Source: Owenweeksia sp. (GTDB lineage: Bacteria > Bacteroidota > Bacteroidia > Flavobacteriales > Schleiferiaceae). From it: DNA of 64,000 nucleotides. The stretch's first letter is position 1; each line of letters begins with the position of its first letter. Positions 46,329 through 54,815 of this stretch are shown here, in pieces. Under the pieces are notes generated by a model, which made no database searches, was not told the origin of the DNA, and worked only from the letters and a program-made list of their open reading frames with translations. The DNA lies in the NCBI GenBank assembly GCA_002695025.1, contig NZNV01000025.1, positions 124,001 through 188,000 on the forward strand, read 5' to 3'. The position numbers and the translations under genes are program-made.

Positions 46329-47084
46329 ATGCCGAAACAAGTGGGGATCCTAAAACTGAGGGGGAAGCTGGAAAGTTTTTCTTTTTACCAATCAAAGGAT
46401 GGGTACATAGTACGCAGGAAAGCGGGGGTAAGTGGTGAACGGATACGGAGAGACCCGGCTTTTGCGCGTACACGAGAAAACGGGAGGGAATTCGGCAGAG
46501 CTGCCAAAGCGGGAAAGTTGTTGCGGGATTCATTCGGAAAGCTTATCCACAGGGTTAGCAGAGGAAGGGTGGCTTCACGGCTGAACAGGCTAATGGTGGC
46601 AATATTGCAAAGCGATGAGGAGCATGAGAGGGGAGAAAGGAGAGTGGAGCAGGGAAAGCTGGCGTGGTTAAAAGGGTTTGATATTAATGAGAAGGCTCCC
46701 TTGCGGCAGGTGTTTATGGCTCCGTACACTTTACGTTATGACCGGACAGTGGGTGTTAGCACGATTTTTATACCGTCTTTCAGGCCGTTGGAATGCCTGA
46801 AGAAACCGAATGGGGCTACTCATTTCAGAATACTGACGGGTTGTGCGGAGCTTGATTTTACTGAGCAGGATTTTGTGAGTAAACAAAAGCAGAGTAACTG
46901 GTTACCACTGGATGAAGAGGTTGGGGATGTGGAACTATTTTTTGGGTTGGCGGGTGGAGGTGATCTGCCTCTGATTACGGTGTTGGGTATGGAGTTTGGG
47001 CAATTGGTGAATAGTGAGGTGTATGGAATGGAGGGGTATAATTGCCTGGGTATTGTTGGGGTACGTGAGGGGCAAAGGAGTTAG
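46329..47084 (+). CDS. Bacteroidota hypothetical protein of the DGY-VR/RTREN type
   Basis: A 251-residue protein without a signal peptide. The N-terminus has FYQSKDGYIVRRKAGVSGER followed by DPAFARTRENGREFGRAAKAGKLLR. I recognise this pattern from hypothetical proteins in many Bacteroidota, often multi-copy, but know no function. The N-terminal half is strongly basic, and the C-terminal part is beta-like with a LDEEVGDVELFFGLAGGGDLPLI segment. It is the first gene after the tRNA-Ser, and its G-rich codon use differs from its neighbours, which fits an accessory gene. Confidence 0.75.
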   Translation: MPKQVGILKLRGKLESFSFYQSKDGYIVRRKAGVSGERIRRDPAFARTRENGREFGRAAKAGKLLRDSFGKLIHRVSRGRVASRLNRLMVAILQSDEEHERGERRVEQGKLAWLKGFDINEKAPLRQVFMAPYTLRYDRTVGVSTIFIPSFRPLECLKKPNGATHFRILTGCAELDFTEQDFVSKQKQSNWLPLDEEVGDVELFFGLAGGGDLPLITVLGMEFGQLVNSEVYGMEGYNCLGIVGVREGQRS

Positions 47085-47126: not shown

Positions 47127-47164
47127 CTTCTTTTCTCTTGATAGAAAAGAAGCCAAAGATCAAG
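47127..47164. repeat. Intergenic hairpin repeat with pseudoknot potential
   Basis: CTTCTTTTCT (47127-47136) and AGAAAAGAAG (47143-47152) form a perfect 10-bp stem with a CTTGAT loop (47137-47142). The loop is complementary to ATCAAG (47159-47164) 6 bases downstream of the stem. It sits in the 263-base gap 47085-47347, where nothing else is recognised. Confidence 0.6.
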
Positions 47165-47347
47165 GGTGCTTAGAAATTCTTTAAAAGCTACGGTTCACCG
47201 GTCCTTAGAAACCCCAGTCGTTTCACTTCGGCACTTCTTGAGAACCGCTTTTACCTTGCTTTTTTACAGAATTTCTAAAAGGCCGTTCCTTCTTCCTGCG
47301 GAAGAATAGGGTTGATGAAAGGTGCTTTCAAAGCATTAGCGGAGTGA

Positions 47348-47623
47348 TTATTTCTTCTCAGGCGGTGGGGGTGGAGGCTTGCGTGGTCCGGGAACAGAAC
47401 GGGTTCCGGGGTAGGGTACAGGCCTGGAAGGTGTTTGCCCGGAGTTTGTCTTAACGAACTTTGGGGAATTATTCTTCTGATCTCTTCTTTTAGACGATAA
47501 TCTTGTTAGGTTACCTATGGAAATATAAGTATTCCCCAATGTGATTTTTGCACTTCCGTCATTGGCTTTACCCGATCGGTCCCTTTGTGCATAGGCATTT
47601 CCCATTTTGTTAAAAGTGTCCAT
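47348..47623 (-). CDS. Small proline-rich hypothetical protein
   Basis: A 91-residue ORF on the minus strand, divergent from the secreted lectin-like gene. The C-terminus is extreme in proline and basic residues (RKPPPPPPEKK), and the middle is basic. There is no signal peptide, membrane helix or known motif. Its open frame and ATG are consistent with a gene, but the size and composition also fit chance or a remnant. I cannot assign a function. Confidence 0.35.
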   Translation of the reverse strand: MDTFNKMGNAYAQRDRSGKANDGSAKITLGNTYISIGNLTRLSSKRRDQKNNSPKFVKTNSGQTPSRPVPYPGTRSVPGPRKPPPPPPEKK

Positions 47624-48630: not shown

Positions 48631-49098
48631 ATGAAGCAATTTGTTTTAATATTTTTTGGCTTCTGGGTGCTTAGTGGGTGTACTCCCTATACAACCTCAG
48701 AACAGTTCAGGGCTTATTTAAATAATCCCCAAAACGGCCTTTCACATAAGTTTATTTTGGAAGGACAAACCTATCACCTTTCCTACCTGCCTTCAATTTT
48801 CACTAATTCAAAGGGTGATATGAAGAGATATTTTAAGCTCCGAGGTGATAACATCTTCTACAGGTTCTCGGAGGAAGACTTCTCAATAGAAAATGAAACT
48901 AAAAAATTAATACCATCCGTGGTAGTCCCTGAAAATGATGGTTTAGGGCAAGGGGAGATACTGGTGATTGGTTTTCCAGCAGATGCCGTTTCAGGAGACT
49001 TTGTGTTTAAAATTAGATCTGCCGGTGGTGGTGATACTGAAGTGGCAAAATTCAAAGGAAAGAGTATTCAGAACATCGAAAAAATCAGGTTAAAATGA
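48631..49098 (+). CDS. Lipoprotein of unknown function in the RHS locus
   Basis: A 155-residue lipoprotein: signal MKQFVLIFFGFWVLSGC with Cys17 in a textbook lipobox. The mature part is beta-rich, with HKFILEGQTYHLSYLPS and MKRYFKLRGDN. No known family is recognised. It begins directly after the lectin-like gene, and its TGA overlaps the ATG of the 1906-residue protein, so it is translationally tied to the RHS partner. It may anchor or chaperone the large proteins at the outer membrane; this is a guess from position. Confidence 0.65.
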   Translation: MKQFVLIFFGFWVLSGCTPYTTSEQFRAYLNNPQNGLSHKFILEGQTYHLSYLPSIFTNSKGDMKRYFKLRGDNIFYRFSEEDFSIENETKKLIPSVVVPENDGLGQGEILVIGFPADAVSGDFVFKIRSAGGGDTEVAKFKGKSIQNIEKIRLK

Positions 49099-52000
49099 AT
49101 AAGATCAGAAATTCAAAGGGCTCCAAAGTGCTTTCTGTATATGTGGCACTGAGTTTTTTAGTGCTTAATTTTTCTCCTGTTAGTTTGTGGGGATTGACCA
49201 CTGGGCCGGGTCAGCCTGAACTGGAAGGTTTTGCTCCTGCAAGTATGAATGAGATGGTGGATTCTTTTACGGGTAATTTCTCCTATAATATACCCCTGAT
49301 GAATGTACCGGGCCCTAATGGAGGGTACCCCATAAACCTGTCTTATACAGGAGGAATACAGATGGAACAAGAGGCTAGTTGGGTTGGACTGGGTTGGAGT
49401 TTAAACCCTGGTGCAGTGAACCGTGAGGTACGTGGATTACCGGATGATTTTAACGGGCAATCCGTAAATAAGAAGCTTACCCAAAGACCTAATCAAACAT
49501 TTGGGGTAAACGTAGCTTTGGCTAACCTGGAGATCTTTGGAGCGGATTCCAAAAAACTGGGAGTAAATCTGAATGCCAATGTAAATATCTTTTACAACAA
49601 TTATCGTGGTTTTAATGTGGAACCTGGTTTTGGATTTAGCTTAATGGATGCCCAGGACCGCAAAAGTGCGGATGGTGCTTCCGAAAAAAATCCTATTGAC
49701 ACTAATGGTAGGGTTGGTTCTCCACCGTCCTTTCCCTTCAAGATAAGAATGAATGAGAAAAGAGAAGAGAAAAAGAGCATTTTCGCAAATCCCGTTCAAT
49801 CCTTTGGGTCTCACTATAAAAATTTGTGGAAAAGGAGTAAGCAAAACCCAGGAGGACTTTTCAGCAGTTCAATAGTTCCTTCTGTCTCGGATATAAACTA
49901 TACCCACCCCATGTCAAGTTCATCCTATACTTTACATGTTAAGACAGGAATAGTGGCTTTTGGTATATCTGGAGATTTGCAGGTTCATACTTATTTTAAT
50001 GAACTTAAAGTGGCCGATAAAGATGTAAATATACCTGCCTACGGATACCTTTATTCGGATCATAATTTAGGGAATTCAAAGTCTGGGCTGATGGATTTTA
50101 CAATGGGAAATCAATCTATGCTTACCCCGGACAGCCGGATATTACCGGTGCCTAATCATACCAATGATGTTTATCATGTAAGTTCCCAAGGTGTTAATGG
50201 AACGGTGCGTGCGTTTAAAGGTGGTGTTACTAAGCTGATTGATCCTACCGTAGTCTCAAAAAAGAAGAACATTGGGGGAGGGTTTGAACTTAACTCCTTA
50301 CTTATCTCCAATAAAGTAGGGATAAACCTGAATGCCGGAGGTGGAAACAGCTATACCGGACCATGGGAAAATGGTGATGAGCCACTTCAATTCTTGAACA
50401 CTCCACTTCAAAACCTTCGCGTTTCGGAACCACTGTTGGAACCATACTATTTCAAATTCGCTAATGAACTTACCAGCCAATCCAATACTAATACTGCGGG
50501 GAGTGATAAGAATGCAGTGCGTTTTGATTTGGATAAGAAATTCGGGCTTTTTGCTGCGGAAGCAAAGTTAAAACCCTCCCTGCAAGGGTCCAGTCTTACA
50601 AATTCCCTGGATCCAAGTAATGCATTTAAGACCCAAAGAGAAAAAAGGGTTAATTCTTTTATGGCCCTTACCGAGGCTGAAGCAGCAGCCTTTGACGGCT
50701 ACACCCGTAAGGTAGGTATAGTTAGCAATCCGGCCAGTACTGTAGATATTAATTTTGAAACTTCCTCTTCTCCTGATAAGGATCGGATTGGTGCTATACA
50801 TGTTAGTGATGGTACGGGCATGCGTTATATTTATGGTATACCTGCCAAAAACAATTTACAAAAGCAAACCACTTTCTCAACCGGTGCAGTATATGGTACC
50901 GGACTTGCAAACCTTATTGGTAAGTCAGTCAATAATTCAAGTACAGAGAACAGTCTTCAGAATTCTTCCGGGACAGACCATTTTTATTCCGCTACACAAA
51001 CCCCGGAGTATGCCCATAGCTACTTGTTAACGGAGATCCTTTCTGAGGATTTTGTTGATATAAATTCCAATGGTCCGGATAAGGAGGATTTTGGCATATA
51101 TACCAAATTCGGATATGTGGTTAAACAGGACTTTAAAACTAAAAGCCCTGTCTCTGGGGCTGACTATTTACCTGGAGACCTTTCCAATGAAGGTGATGAT
51201 AAGGGAACCATTACTTATTTTGAAAAGGATTTGTATTACTTGAGATCCATTGAAACCAAATCTCACATAGCAATTTTTGAAATTGAGGAACGCGATGATG
51301 CCTATGGGGTTGGTGGAGAAAATTCTGGGCCTACCTCTTTACAGTCGCAATACCGTTTAAAAAATATCACCCTCTATAATGTTGATGACTACAATGAAAA
51401 TGGAGCTTCTGCCAAGCCTATAAAAACTGTACACTTCGGGTATAGCTATGAGCTTTGTGATGGTGCCACCAATGCTTCATCGGGAAAACTTACTTTAAAG
51501 AAGGTATGGTATACAGTTGGAACGGAAAAAACCAAAATGTCTCTTAGTCCCTATGAGTTTGCTTACACAAACAATTATGACTACAACGAAAATCATGTGG
51601 ATCGCTGGGCTACCTATCAAACAGAAGAGCAGAATATCTTTGGATCCAATACTCTATATCCTTATACAACCCAACTACAAAGTGACGCAAACGCTTTTGC
51701 AGCTGCATGGAATTTAAGCGAAATAACTCTGCCCACTGGCGGAGTTATTACGGTAAATTATGAAGCGGATGATTATCAGTATGTGCAAAACCGAAAAGCA
51801 CAGCGAATGTGTGAAATAATAGGTTTTGCTACGGGAAGCTTGAGTTCGCATGATTCTGTGCTGAGTGATGATAAAGATTGGATGATTGTTGATGTGGCCG
51901 AGAGCCTGCAAAACGCCCAGGAGGGCTTAAAATATACTGCAGGCTTGAAACAGCTATACTTTAAGGCCTTTATGAAAATGAAAGAATTTGAAGGTGAAAG

Positions 52001-54815
52001 TAACCCTCCCCCTCAAACAACTCCTTTCAACGGTTCTGACTTGGTAGCGTATGATTTTGTAGAAGGCTATTTAGACCTAGCTTCAGAAGATCCGGAAATA
52101 TATTCTTATGGCGGAAAGAATTATCTGGCCATTAGGGTCAAGAAGGATGGGAGAGGACGTCACCCTGTTAAAAAGGCAGGTTGGGTAGCACTAAGGCTCA
52201 ATAGAAACGATCTTCTTGATGATTCTGGAATTGATATAGATGGTTTTTCCAATTTTTCAGCTTCAATACTTGGGGCAATTGGATCAGTCATATCCAAAGC
52301 GGTGGAATTTGCTGTGGATGAAGGGGCTTTTTTCATTAAAGCAAATAACAGAGGTTGGTGCAATCATCTCTCCACCGGTTTAAAATCTATCGTAAGATTA
52401 AATGTAGCCGGTAAGAAAATAGGCGGTGGGCATAGGGTAAAGGATATTAAAATAAGTGATGAATGGTCACAAATGGGCGGGGGTAGCAGTGATGACTATG
52501 GTCAAACTTATAGCTATATCTTGCCAGATGGATCCAGTTCAGGTGTTGCGCAATATGAGCCTTTAACCGGAGGAGAGGAAAACCCCTTCAGAGAACCGGT
52601 ACGGTACGGTACTGACAAACTGTTTTTTAAGGATAGTGATCTATATTCTGAATTACCAATTGGGGAAGCATTTTTTCCTATGGCTTCAGTAGGCTATAGT
52701 CGGGTGGTAGTAACCAATAAGGCCAATCAAACACTTACCAACGGTGGTGCCGGAGTTCAGGTTACTGAGTTCTATACAGCTAAGGACTACCCGGTACAAA
52801 CTTCACGGACAGATATCCATAAAGTAAACGCAGGCACAGCAGAGAAACTGATCGCTTTGATCGGTAATAAGAAATATTTCCAGCCCGGTTTTTCGCAGGG
52901 CTACAGTATTGAACTGAACAATATGCATGGTCAGAAAAAAAGTGAGGCTACTTACAGGGCTAACGCCAACTTGGCCAAGGCAAGCCCGGTTCAGAAAACC
53001 GCGTATTACTACAGTACTGAAGGAGGGTACTTACCTGGTAAAGTAAATAAGCTTAAAAATGAGGTAAATGTTATCGGACCTGATGGTATTGAATCCAAAA
53101 AAGAAATAGGTGTAACCCAGGATACTTACGTTCACATGGGCGAAAGCCATGAGAGGACGTATGGTGGAGCAGTGGATGGAGACTTAGATTTTGGAACACC
53201 CCCTGCACTATATGTTGTACCCTCTGCCTATCCCAATATAGACTATTCTTACACCATGACCCGAACGGTAACCATGAACAAGGTAATCAGTCAGGCCGGT
53301 ATATTGGAAAAAGTGGTAACCTTTTATAATGGGGCGGAAACCACACAGGAACATTTATCCTTTGATGAGGAAACGGGTGTGCCACTGGTTTCATACACCA
53401 CCAATGATTTTAATGATACCATTTCCACCGCCACTCATCTGGCACGTTGGGATTACACGGATATGGGAGGTTCTTATCAGAATGAAGGAATTGTTATAGA
53501 AGGTCAGGTTAGTGATTACCTTAACTATCTGGTGCCTGGAGACATGCTTATAAACCCTACTACCCAAGAAAAAGTATGGGTTACTAAAAATAATGGTAAC
53601 CTGGAAGTTAGGGAAAAGGATGGTACTCTCTTCAGTAATGCCAACCTGCGGGGTTTTAAATTGATAAGGTCTGGCTATTCCAATAAAATGGGGACTACCC
53701 TTTCTTCAGTAACCACCAAGGGTAACCCTTACCAGTTTTTTACCAGTAGTTCGGTTGATGACGTGCTACAGGCTGATGCCATGACCTATAGTGATGAACT
53801 CAAAATTGCACTGGACCTGGGAGGGGTCTCAGCCTCTGATACCACAGGTATGGCATTAAACCCCTATGCTTATGCGATGAAGGGTGTTTATAAGCCCTCC
53901 AAAAGCTATTTCCACCTTGTGGATAGATCTCAAATTCATGAAGGACAAAATAGTTATGATTTTCATACCCGCATCCAGTCCGATGGGATATTTAAGGATT
54001 TTCACGTGTTTGACCCTGAGGGGGGGAATTCCGGATGGTATTTGTCTAATGAAATTGTTCTGTATGATCATAATGGTTTTGCTATTGAGGAGAAAGATGC
54101 ATTGGGAAATTACTCTGCAGCCTTGTATGGTTATGACAGAAACCTTCCAATTGCTGTTGCTCAAAATGCTATGTATCAGGAAATTGCTTTTGAAAGTTTT
54201 GAAGATTACAAATCAGGAAGTTTTTCATCACCACAATATCCGTATTTAGAGGATCCGGAAAACACTCACTTAAGGATAGAAGGTAGCCTTGAGCTTAGCG
54301 AAAAAGGGGATTCTCACACGGGCCTATATTCCTTTATTACGGGTGATCCGGAAATTGAGGCCAATCTGGATGATTTACTTGAATTCACCCCCGGTAAACA
54401 ATATTTGCTACAAGCCTGGAGAAAAACCAGTGCAGGAGGTGCTTTATCTGTTGAAGTTGATAATGCTGATCCTGGCATAGTTGCCGGGAAAGTTTCACCG
54501 TCTATCGAAGGGTGGGAATTGGTAGAAGTGGTCTTTATTGCAGGGACTACACATAAACTGGTTTTTGAGGGTGAAAATTCTCAATATGATGATATAAAGA
54601 TTCATCCTTTGGATGCCGGATTTGTGGGCTATGTGTACGATAGGTATAGTCACCGCGTGACAGCTGTATTGGATGCAAACCACTTTGCTACTGTGTATAG
54701 CTATGATCATGATGGCGTGTTGGTTAAAACAGCTAAAGAAACGGAAAGAGGGTATAAGACCATTCAATCTACTTTACGCAATACCAAACAAAGATCAGGA
54801 ACTCCTCAATCATAA
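49095..54815 (+). CDS. Large SpvB/TcB-like RHS partner protein
   Basis: A 1906-residue exported protein; signal-like N-terminus about 1-33. The first 110 residues (EGFAPASMNEMVDSFTGNFSY ... LMNVPGPNGGYPINLSYTGG ... WVGLGWSLNPGAVNR) resemble the N-terminal domain of SpvB and TcB proteins, which opens with a symmetric sugar-like barrel and the G-x-G-W-x-L motif. The long middle is beta-rich, and YD-type repeats appear near the end (YVYDRYSHRVTAVLDANHFATVYSYDHDG). There is no RHS core and no toxin. It is followed after 42 bases by the RHS protein, giving a two-protein RHS shell. Confidence 0.8.
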   Translation: MNKIRNSKGSKVLSVYVALSFLVLNFSPVSLWGLTTGPGQPELEGFAPASMNEMVDSFTGNFSYNIPLMNVPGPNGGYPINLSYTGGIQMEQEASWVGLGWSLNPGAVNREVRGLPDDFNGQSVNKKLTQRPNQTFGVNVALANLEIFGADSKKLGVNLNANVNIFYNNYRGFNVEPGFGFSLMDAQDRKSADGASEKNPIDTNGRVGSPPSFPFKIRMNEKREEKKSIFANPVQSFGSHYKNLWKRSKQNPGGLFSSSIVPSVSDINYTHPMSSSSYTLHVKTGIVAFGISGDLQVHTYFNELKVADKDVNIPAYGYLYSDHNLGNSKSGLMDFTMGNQSMLTPDSRILPVPNHTNDVYHVSSQGVNGTVRAFKGGVTKLIDPTVVSKKKNIGGGFELNSLLISNKVGINLNAGGGNSYTGPWENGDEPLQFLNTPLQNLRVSEPLLEPYYFKFANELTSQSNTNTAGSDKNAVRFDLDKKFGLFAAEAKLKPSLQGSSLTNSLDPSNAFKTQREKRVNSFMALTEAEAAAFDGYTRKVGIVSNPASTVDINFETSSSPDKDRIGAIHVSDGTGMRYIYGIPAKNNLQKQTTFSTGAVYGTGLANLIGKSVNNSSTENSLQNSSGTDHFYSATQTPEYAHSYLLTEILSEDFVDINSNGPDKEDFGIYTKFGYVVKQDFKTKSPVSGADYLPGDLSNEGDDKGTITYFEKDLYYLRSIETKSHIAIFEIEERDDAYGVGGENSGPTSLQSQYRLKNITLYNVDDYNENGASAKPIKTVHFGYSYELCDGATNASSGKLTLKKVWYTVGTEKTKMSLSPYEFAYTNNYDYNENHVDRWATYQTEEQNIFGSNTLYPYTTQLQSDANAFAAAWNLSEITLPTGGVITVNYEADDYQYVQNRKAQRMCEIIGFATGSLSSHDSVLSDDKDWMIVDVAESLQNAQEGLKYTAGLKQLYFKAFMKMKEFEGESNPPPQTTPFNGSDLVAYDFVEGYLDLASEDPEIYSYGGKNYLAIRVKKDGRGRHPVKKAGWVALRLNRNDLLDDSGIDIDGFSNFSASILGAIGSVISKAVEFAVDEGAFFIKANNRGWCNHLSTGLKSIVRLNVAGKKIGGGHRVKDIKISDEWSQMGGGSSDDYGQTYSYILPDGSSSGVAQYEPLTGGEENPFREPVRYGTDKLFFKDSDLYSELPIGEAFFPMASVGYSRVVVTNKANQTLTNGGAGVQVTEFYTAKDYPVQTSRTDIHKVNAGTAEKLIALIGNKKYFQPGFSQGYSIELNNMHGQKKSEATYRANANLAKASPVQKTAYYYSTEGGYLPGKVNKLKNEVNVIGPDGIESKKEIGVTQDTYVHMGESHERTYGGAVDGDLDFGTPPALYVVPSAYPNIDYSYTMTRTVTMNKVISQAGILEKVVTFYNGAETTQEHLSFDEETGVPLVSYTTNDFNDTISTATHLARWDYTDMGGSYQNEGIVIEGQVSDYLNYLVPGDMLINPTTQEKVWVTKNNGNLEVREKDGTLFSNANLRGFKLIRSGYSNKMGTTLSSVTTKGNPYQFFTSSSVDDVLQADAMTYSDELKIALDLGGVSASDTTGMALNPYAYAMKGVYKPSKSYFHLVDRSQIHEGQNSYDFHTRIQSDGIFKDFHVFDPEGGNSGWYLSNEIVLYDHNGFAIEEKDALGNYSAALYGYDRNLPIAVAQNAMYQEIAFESFEDYKSGSFSSPQYPYLEDPENTHLRIEGSLELSEKGDSHTGLYSFITGDPEIEANLDDLLEFTPGKQYLLQAWRKTSAGGALSVEVDNADPGIVAGKVSPSIEGWELVEVVFIAGTTHKLVFEGENSQYDDIKIHPLDAGFVGYVYDRYSHRVTAVLDANHFATVYSYDHDGVLVKTAKETERGYKTIQSTLRNTKQRSGTPQS

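Follow-up and report, generated by a model that had tools for sequence, protein, structure and literature searches.

The window, that is, the whole 64-kb stretch of DNA that was analysed, carries a non-coding structured element between two open reading frames (46329-47084 and 47348-47623). The first-pass annotation had described positions 47127-47164 as a perfect 10-bp stem with a CTTGAT loop and an ATCAAG tail 6 nt after the stem, and all of these features are exact in the sequence. They constitute only the 5' end of the element, which extends beyond them to about position 47284. Indeed, with a 261-base query searched against the same genome, the homology to three further loci (L002-L004) continues for about 130 nt past the hairpin and tail of the window copy. 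The GGCC end was placed by comparison with the elements of the genus represented by genome G358. The features are collected in Table 1. The window copy obeys the triple-helix rule described below, since G is found both at the last linker base and in stem pair 2. The helix corresponding to the outer body helix covaries in alignment A4. Further downstream lies a 1906-aa open reading frame (49095-54815), which we take to encode an RHS-type protein.

Table 1. Features of the element in the window (positions are those of the window)
Feature	Position	Strand	Remarks
Whole element	47127..47284	.	~158 nt, from the hairpin's outer foot to the terminal GGCC
Stem, 5' arm CTTCTTTTCT	47127..47136	+	10-bp stem; covaries across copies
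Loop CTTGAT, 6 nt	47137..47142	+	Complementary to the tail
Stem, 3' arm AGAAAAGAAG	47143..47152	+	Second base G, which linker base 47158 follows
Linker CCAAAG, A-rich	47153..47158	+	6-nt gap between stem and tail; pyrimidine-rich on the minus strand
Tail ATCAAG	47159..47164	+	Partner of the loop
Outer body helix, 5' strand TTAGAAATTCT	47170..47180	+	Pairs with 47268-47278 in the minimum-energy fold
AAAAGC	47183..47188	+	Pairs with GCTTTT 47258-47263 (sequence and fold)
CGGTTC	47191..47196	+	Can pair with GAACCG 47242-47247 (sequence)
Outer body helix, 3' strand AGAATTTCTAA	47268..47278	+	Minimum-energy fold
GGCC, 3' end of the element on the + strand	47281..47284	+	Ends all 11 elements of the G358 genus

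Both strands of the window were scanned with a descriptor that required a stem of at least 8 bp, a loop of 4-9 nt and, no further than 30 nt away, 5 or more complementary bases. The scan returned the site at 47127-47164 in two registers, plus one unrelated and weaker 5-base match. In ten mononucleotide shuffles of the window, matches of this looser kind numbered 0, 0, 1, 0, 0, 0, 0, 0, 1 and 0. A 28-base string of the element, with up to 3 mismatches allowed, occurs a single time in the window (expectation 0.00). In an Rfam search of the window only a tRNA scored, and no family corresponded to the element. A search for the orthologous locus in four related genomes yielded no empty site for the window copy; what matched was the query's tRNA end and, in G013, a family copy.

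Copies were collected in the same genome and in related ones, as the first-pass annotation had proposed. A covariance model of the head in which the tail was left unpaired (R1) produced 13 matches in the genome of the window, all with E-values below 0.002, and at E ≤ 0.1 it produced matches in 29 of the 88 genomes of the family. A broader covariance model built from 32 sequences (R2) also found 13 matches in the own genome and, at E ≤ 0.001, matches in 123 of 392 sampled Bacteroidota genomes, the stricter filters of this search losing weak matches. Ten complete or near-complete genomes contain 2-17 copies each (89 in total at E ≤ 1e-5), and the copy number among relatives ranges from none to 17 and more. 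The carriers include oral, gut and environmental genera of Bacteroidota; among the matches listed, the record titles of the stem-bearing loci all point to this phylum (Balneolaceae counted in) except for one Chlorobiota bin (L260). The pattern is also matched by 34 stretches in viral contigs, and a plasmid search with one G358 element gave no match. Rfam searches of 21 other loci, together with a further search, returned nothing above the gathering threshold and chance-level matches only, and no description of such a family was found in the open-licence literature, preprints aside. The element is best explained as one copy of a large dispersed family of non-coding sequences of Bacteroidota that is apparently undescribed.

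Four body motifs (AACTCG, CTCA[AG]ACA, TTAACG and AGGCCG) are present in 73-87 of 248 copies, whereas at positions drawn at random from these loci the figure is 10-19. This recurrence indicates that the motifs mark a main subfamily; the copy in the window is a member of a diverged subfamily. Several copies depart from the common layout. Two copies located at contig ends of the own genome (L005 and L006) have about 50 nt of extra sequence between stem and tail. A nearly identical insert of about 50 nt is also seen between stem and tail in L072 (G003), and the loop itself is interrupted by shorter inserts in G297 and G395 and by longer ones in G013, G016 and G017. The inserts may represent another small element, one with the head as its target. 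Copies that are truncated or limited to the head stand beside full copies in L109, L110 and L111 (G016), in L317 and L318, and in G313. Some break off inside the tail or directly behind it, covering R2 positions 1-31 to 1-39, and in others the sequence changes after TCAA.

Loop and tail covary in the family. The first copies examined in the own genome already combined CTTGAT with ATCAAG (window), TTTGAA with TTCAAG (L002, one G.T pair) and CTTGAC with GTCAAG (L003 and L004). The last combination is the one that the first-pass annotation had given as an example from other Bacteroidota, and copies elsewhere in the phylum confirm that the design occurs there with other loops. A contig database was then scanned with a pattern that imposed nothing on loop base 6, tail base 1, either arm of the stem or the final base of the linker, giving at least 134 matches in at least 120 loci. 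In 115 of the 134 matches listed, 5 or more contiguous pairs enclose the loop; these copies are called stem-bearing here. Loop base 6 and tail base 1 form a Watson-Crick pair in 113 of these 115 copies (T-A 64, A-T 25, C-G 24), which sustains the predicted covariation, and the two exceptions are both A/A. An earlier tally restricted to 80 of the loci (74/74) is superseded by this count on all 120 loci listed. Among the matches listed, the two positions are complementary in 96 of 98 distinct cores, and in 15 of the 19 matches that have no such stem.

A second test concerned the whole loop. Hairpins made of a perfect 8-bp stem and a 6-nt loop are accompanied by a perfect 6-base tail in 171 of 707 cases, against 5 of 707 with shuffled loops; these 707 hairpins come from the loci of the family search, so that the figure measures the strength of the rule and not its frequency, and the sequences are related by descent, so that p-values overstate their independence. 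When the R2 matches were taken with loop and tail unfiltered, full Watson-Crick pairing was observed in 68 of 132 rows of the own family. Outside the family, 150 of 155 matches were aligned, and 120 of these rows are fully paired. The other rows are truncated, contain loop inserts, belong to a second unit type or are true exceptions, such as CTTGAC/CTCAAG (L036), CTTGAC/TTCAAG (L120), CTTGAT/AGCAAG (a second own-genome copy near L034), CATGAT/ATCTAG (several G017 copies), CTTAAA/TTCAAG (G395) and a few more. The first-pass annotation had named two results that would speak against its reading. One, a lack of other copies, is not observed; the other, a loop changed without its tail, does occur in a minority of copies, for example in L036, L120 and G395. 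Where pairing is complete, T, C and A are found at loop base 6, but never G. The loop is complementary, with covariation, to a region outside its own stem, and an H-type pseudoknot is predicted from these sequences. Pairing along the entire 6-base loop would be sterically tight, as neither side has a spacer.

The remainder of the unit is also structured. Eleven elements of one genus (169-212 nt; G358, G393, G467 and G471) could be aligned over their full length, and RNAalifold proposed 39 pairs, 15 of which show compensatory double changes. When the rod is combined with the pseudoknot, 15 of 41 pairs show double changes and 98.4% of the cells are paired, a percentage favoured by the fact that the rod structure was largely derived from the same alignment. 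The same structure contains 44 double-change cells against a shuffled mean of 15.2, a value reached by 0 of 500 shuffles, and sliding the structure by 1-3 columns reduces the paired cells to 38.6-57.1%. The rod closes beside the tail, where GGCT pairs with AGGCC. The mean folding z-score, calculated on 60 of 241 elements, is -3.6 for the top strand and -3.8 for the complementary strand. Units are about 158-212 nt long and inverted pairs 360-540 nt.

A third correlation links the stem to the linker, whose typical sequence is CAAAA[AG]. In 173 distinct cores, the last linker base follows Y, the second base of the 3' arm: it is A in 48 of 48 cores with Y=A and G in 13 of 14 cores with Y=G. With Y=C, it is free (A 57, G 53, C 1). 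Cores with Y=G come from more than one lineage, namely the own family, Parabacteroides, Pedobacter, further bins and genome G211. Over 185 cores, viral loci included (the viral stretches were part of the linker-context and mutual-information scans and were left out of the folding-energy and flank or motif tests), the mutual information between this linker base and Y amounts to 0.276, against a shuffled maximum of 0.056, and it does not exceed 0.051 for any site tested beyond this pair. TTTT/AAAA makes up stem pairs 3-6 in 175 of the 185 cores, and 179 have AAAA in the linker, although the search models and the scan pattern favoured this linker A-tract.

On the complementary strand the linker has the sequence YUUUUG, and its direction is the same as that of the purine arm. 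In a pyrimidine triple helix, U is placed beside an A-U pair and C beside a G-C pair. Under this rule, pairs whose purine is on the other arm should leave the linker base free, as is seen. The linker rule is that of a U.A-U / C+.G-C triple helix on the complementary strand, and a major-groove triple-helix pseudoknot is predicted in the sense that the third-strand base tracks the purine of the stem pair as a rule of sequence. In 66 distinct stems, the top strand shows 30 A.C mismatches, of which 13 share a single position, and 11 G.T mismatches; they read as 30 G.U and 11 A.C on the complementary one. The complementary strand fits both the linker rule and the A.C excess better, and a reading of the element on its top strand may therefore concern the wrong strand. 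A purine-motif triplex on the top strand was rejected: it satisfies the linker rule as well, but it is less usual and leaves the A.C excess unexplained. The complementary strand also folds better in 199 of 241 elements, against 178 after shuffling. The mean difference is -5.76 kcal/mol with a shuffled control of -4.28, leaving a structural part of -1.47 (p=1.8e-5), and is mostly a matter of base composition. The idea that linker length tracks stem length was dropped, with a correlation of -0.18 over 117 perfect stems whose ends are poorly defined.

In a rival reading, loop and tail are one protein-binding site present twice, as an inverted repeat CTTGAY...RTCAAG of double-stranded DNA, and they are complementary on account of a protein that reads both rather than through base pairing. 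The nearly invariant TTGA/TCAA core, where practically only loop positions 1 and 6 vary, is what such sites would look like. This reading nevertheless appears improbable, as it explains neither why stem pair 2 sets the linker base nor the covariation of stem and rod.

The position of the copies relative to genes was analysed in parallel. Only 4 of 108 copies overlap an open reading frame of at least 100 aa. Among 80 copies, 48 lie between tandem genes, 20 between convergent and 12 between divergent ones, for a baseline of 137, 40 and 46 out of 223; the 48 tandem sites divide into 24 sense and 24 antisense, and there is no orientation bias of the copies relative to genes. A strong hairpin in intergenic DNA invites comparison with a transcription terminator or a stabiliser of 3' ends, but such a role is very improbable here: the stem is followed by no T run on its 3' side, contains few G-C pairs and is not called terminator-like, the copies are not enriched after genes and use divergent sites too, and a terminator has no need of loop-tail covariation. 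The first-pass annotation had anticipated a structured RNA or a mobile repeat rather than a simple terminator, and copies and covariation support this choice, the pseudoknot and the RNA form being predictions.

The random orientation would also suit an independent transcription unit. The family could then consist of stand-alone genes for a trans-acting small RNA, spread by ordinary duplication, in which the knot protects or presents the 3' end; the covariation of rod and knot resembles that of structured RNAs, and the better folding of the complementary strand points in the same direction. We regard this as rather unlikely. A copy number that goes from none to 17 and more among relatives suits a selfish repeat better, the promoter-like sites near the window copy are not above those of shuffled sequences (2 against a mean of 1.2), and stems and helices vary widely between the copies of a single genome.

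Mobility is suggested by one locus in which a copy is found between two genes in G358, while the same gene pair (77-80% identical) is free of it in the congeners G393 and G471, where the intergenic stretch measures about 250-300 bases. At this single locus no exact junction or target duplication was seen, the flanks being too diverged. The upstream flanks of 248 copies show no consensus (at most 0.32 bits outside the 11-bp stem). A Pfam search of 108 neighbouring proteins, taken from 80 of the 120 database loci, gave 168 families, and the first 25 of them include no mobile-element family that recurs.

Copies also occur in arrays. In the ten genomes, neighbouring copies are on the same strand in 26 of 26 cases below 1 kb, 8 of 9 at 1-5 kb, 8 of 13 at 5-60 kb and 14 of 31 above 60 kb. 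The close copies form head-to-tail arrays, and L352, L353 and L223 repeat the element together with its spacer; a strand bias on the scale of the chromosome was discarded on the basis of the most distant class. The array of L223 (Neolewinella aurantiaca) comprises five tandem repeats, about 750 bp in length, all of which begin with the same head. Integron-like cassette arrays, suggested by the clustering of copies on one strand, were also considered and set aside, the DNA between copies being mostly non-coding tandem repeat (L223) or ordinary genes (L315). Clusters of copies are seen in L317 (G418), L318 (G155) and L315 (G358) among what are presumably polysaccharide-synthesis genes, and own-genome copies in L095 (G000) lie near an operon that we assume to be of the restriction-modification kind.

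In the own family, many copies are arranged as inverted pairs 360-540 bp apart with their hairpins outward. In most cases the second unit of the pair, of a type seen in family f1, has the loop CATTGNC and the tail NNCTAGG, with partial complementarity only. Such pairs are found at L086:2273-2718 and L085:3356-3831, and in L107, L108, L067, L064, L093 and L113; a conserved body, GCGGAATTGCGTCCGCC..GGCGGAAGGAGCATGAAGCG, is common to several of them.

These properties (intergenic position, structure, multiple copies and occasional inverted pairs with outward hairpins) are those expected of a REP/REPIN-like DNA element moved by a RAYT (TnpA_REP, a Y1 HUH enzyme). The excerpts available of Quentin 2018 (PMC6006769) report that Bacteroidota RAYT genes of subclass 2.6 are flanked by atypical structures, copies of which exist elsewhere in the genome. 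RAYT/REP was the strongest candidate among known families because these subclass 2.6 enzymes are described there with atypical flanking structures. PF01797 matches were obtained in 12 of 20 genomes tested, but their presence does not track the elements. The domain is absent (E ≤ 0.001) from 7 of 16 element-bearing genomes (G013, G016, G017, G018, G021, G022 and G060), among which the single-contig G016 has 13 R1 matches yet no PF01797 match at this threshold, and with it no IS200/IS605 TnpA. A scan of 22 PF01797 loci (L143-L164) detected no intact copy of the element; one degenerate copy is located about 0.7 kb from the PF01797 gene C10 of the own genome. No GTAG- or CGTC-type tetranucleotide foot is conserved at the hairpin in 248 copies, and the size of about 160-500 nt exceeds the 20-40 nt of a REP palindrome. 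A RAYT as mobiliser is thus not supported by the PF01797 search and the flank scans, even if PF01797 may miss diverged members, and this origin seems unlikely. The own genome does contain Y1_Tnp-like genes with short palindromes of their own, different from the element: CGCGCGAA..TTCGCGCG at L154 (G000:C38), AAGCGTAGCG..CGCTACGCTT at L160 (G000:C39) and AGGCGTAGTT..AACTACGCCT at L164 (G000:C10). They are probably RAYT genes with their cognate repeats.

The explanation that we favour, and hold to be probable, is that of a non-coding element mobilised in trans and recognised as a folded single strand, with a covarying and possibly triple-helical pseudoknot. In each unit, a hairpin head would carry a 6-nt loop that pairs with a tail immediately beyond the stem. 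Behind it, stacked helices and internal loops would make up a rod, closed next to the tail. The folded form would act as a single strand, most likely the complementary one (minus in the window). In this strand, the U-rich linker YUUUUG would occupy the major groove of the A-U stem and form a U.A-U / C+.G-C triple helix with it, and the knot would cap the 3' end. The element would not move by itself, and both partners of every pair would change together because a trans-acting enzyme recognises the knot; a transposase working on single-stranded DNA, or a reverse transcriptase working on the RNA of the element, are the candidates. A more specific version is put forward tentatively: the complementary strand may be an RNA of about 160-220 nt produced from many loci of Bacteroidota, whose 3' triple-helix pseudoknot serves as a handle for copying to new places, a reverse transcriptase or a single-stranded-DNA enzyme copying the element via the knot. 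If true, we know of no earlier case of a bacterial repeat family for which a triple-helix knot is the signal for mobility.

A structured element carried by about one third of the sampled Bacteroidota genomes, with neither an Rfam match nor a description that we could find, is of interest in several respects. The family offers a testable structural rule in which loop, tail, stem and linker change together, and the search model recovers copies by the hundred. The element constitutes a direct route to a mobilising enzyme or a small RNA not yet known, and it may explain some contig breaks and array repeats in Bacteroidota genomes.

Several known systems share part of these properties. Telomerase RNA and the SAM-II riboswitch contain major-groove triple-helix pseudoknots in which a U-rich strand lies beside an A-U stem. 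The U.A-U and C+.G-C triples of the present element would be of the same type, here as a prediction for the complementary strand; a relationship in sequence was compared through Rfam, which gave no match. The ends of IS200/IS605 elements are single-stranded hairpins recognised by TnpA, near which one short stretch pairs with another. The present element is likewise structured, with a short stretch pairing with another near a hairpin, but here the loop is joined by 6 canonical base pairs to a tail downstream of it, and no recurrent tnpA is found beside the element. As with the REP, BIME and REPIN sequences associated with RAYT (TnpA_REP), the element is non-coding, intergenic, palindromic and multicopy, is sometimes arranged in inverted pairs and is presumably moved in trans; it differs from them by its length of about 160-500 nt, its multi-helix rod, its loop-tail pseudoknot, the absence of a GTAG-type foot and the lack of any RAYT linkage found. 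RU-1 and RU-2 are MITE-like intergenic repeats of enterobacteria, about 100-170 bp long according to the excerpts of the paper describing them (PMC2759123). They belong to a different phylum, and loop-tail covariation goes unmentioned in these excerpts (PMC2759123); what they have in common with the present family, as far as the same excerpts describe them (PMC2759123), is the nature of a short, non-coding and mobile-looking intergenic repeat.
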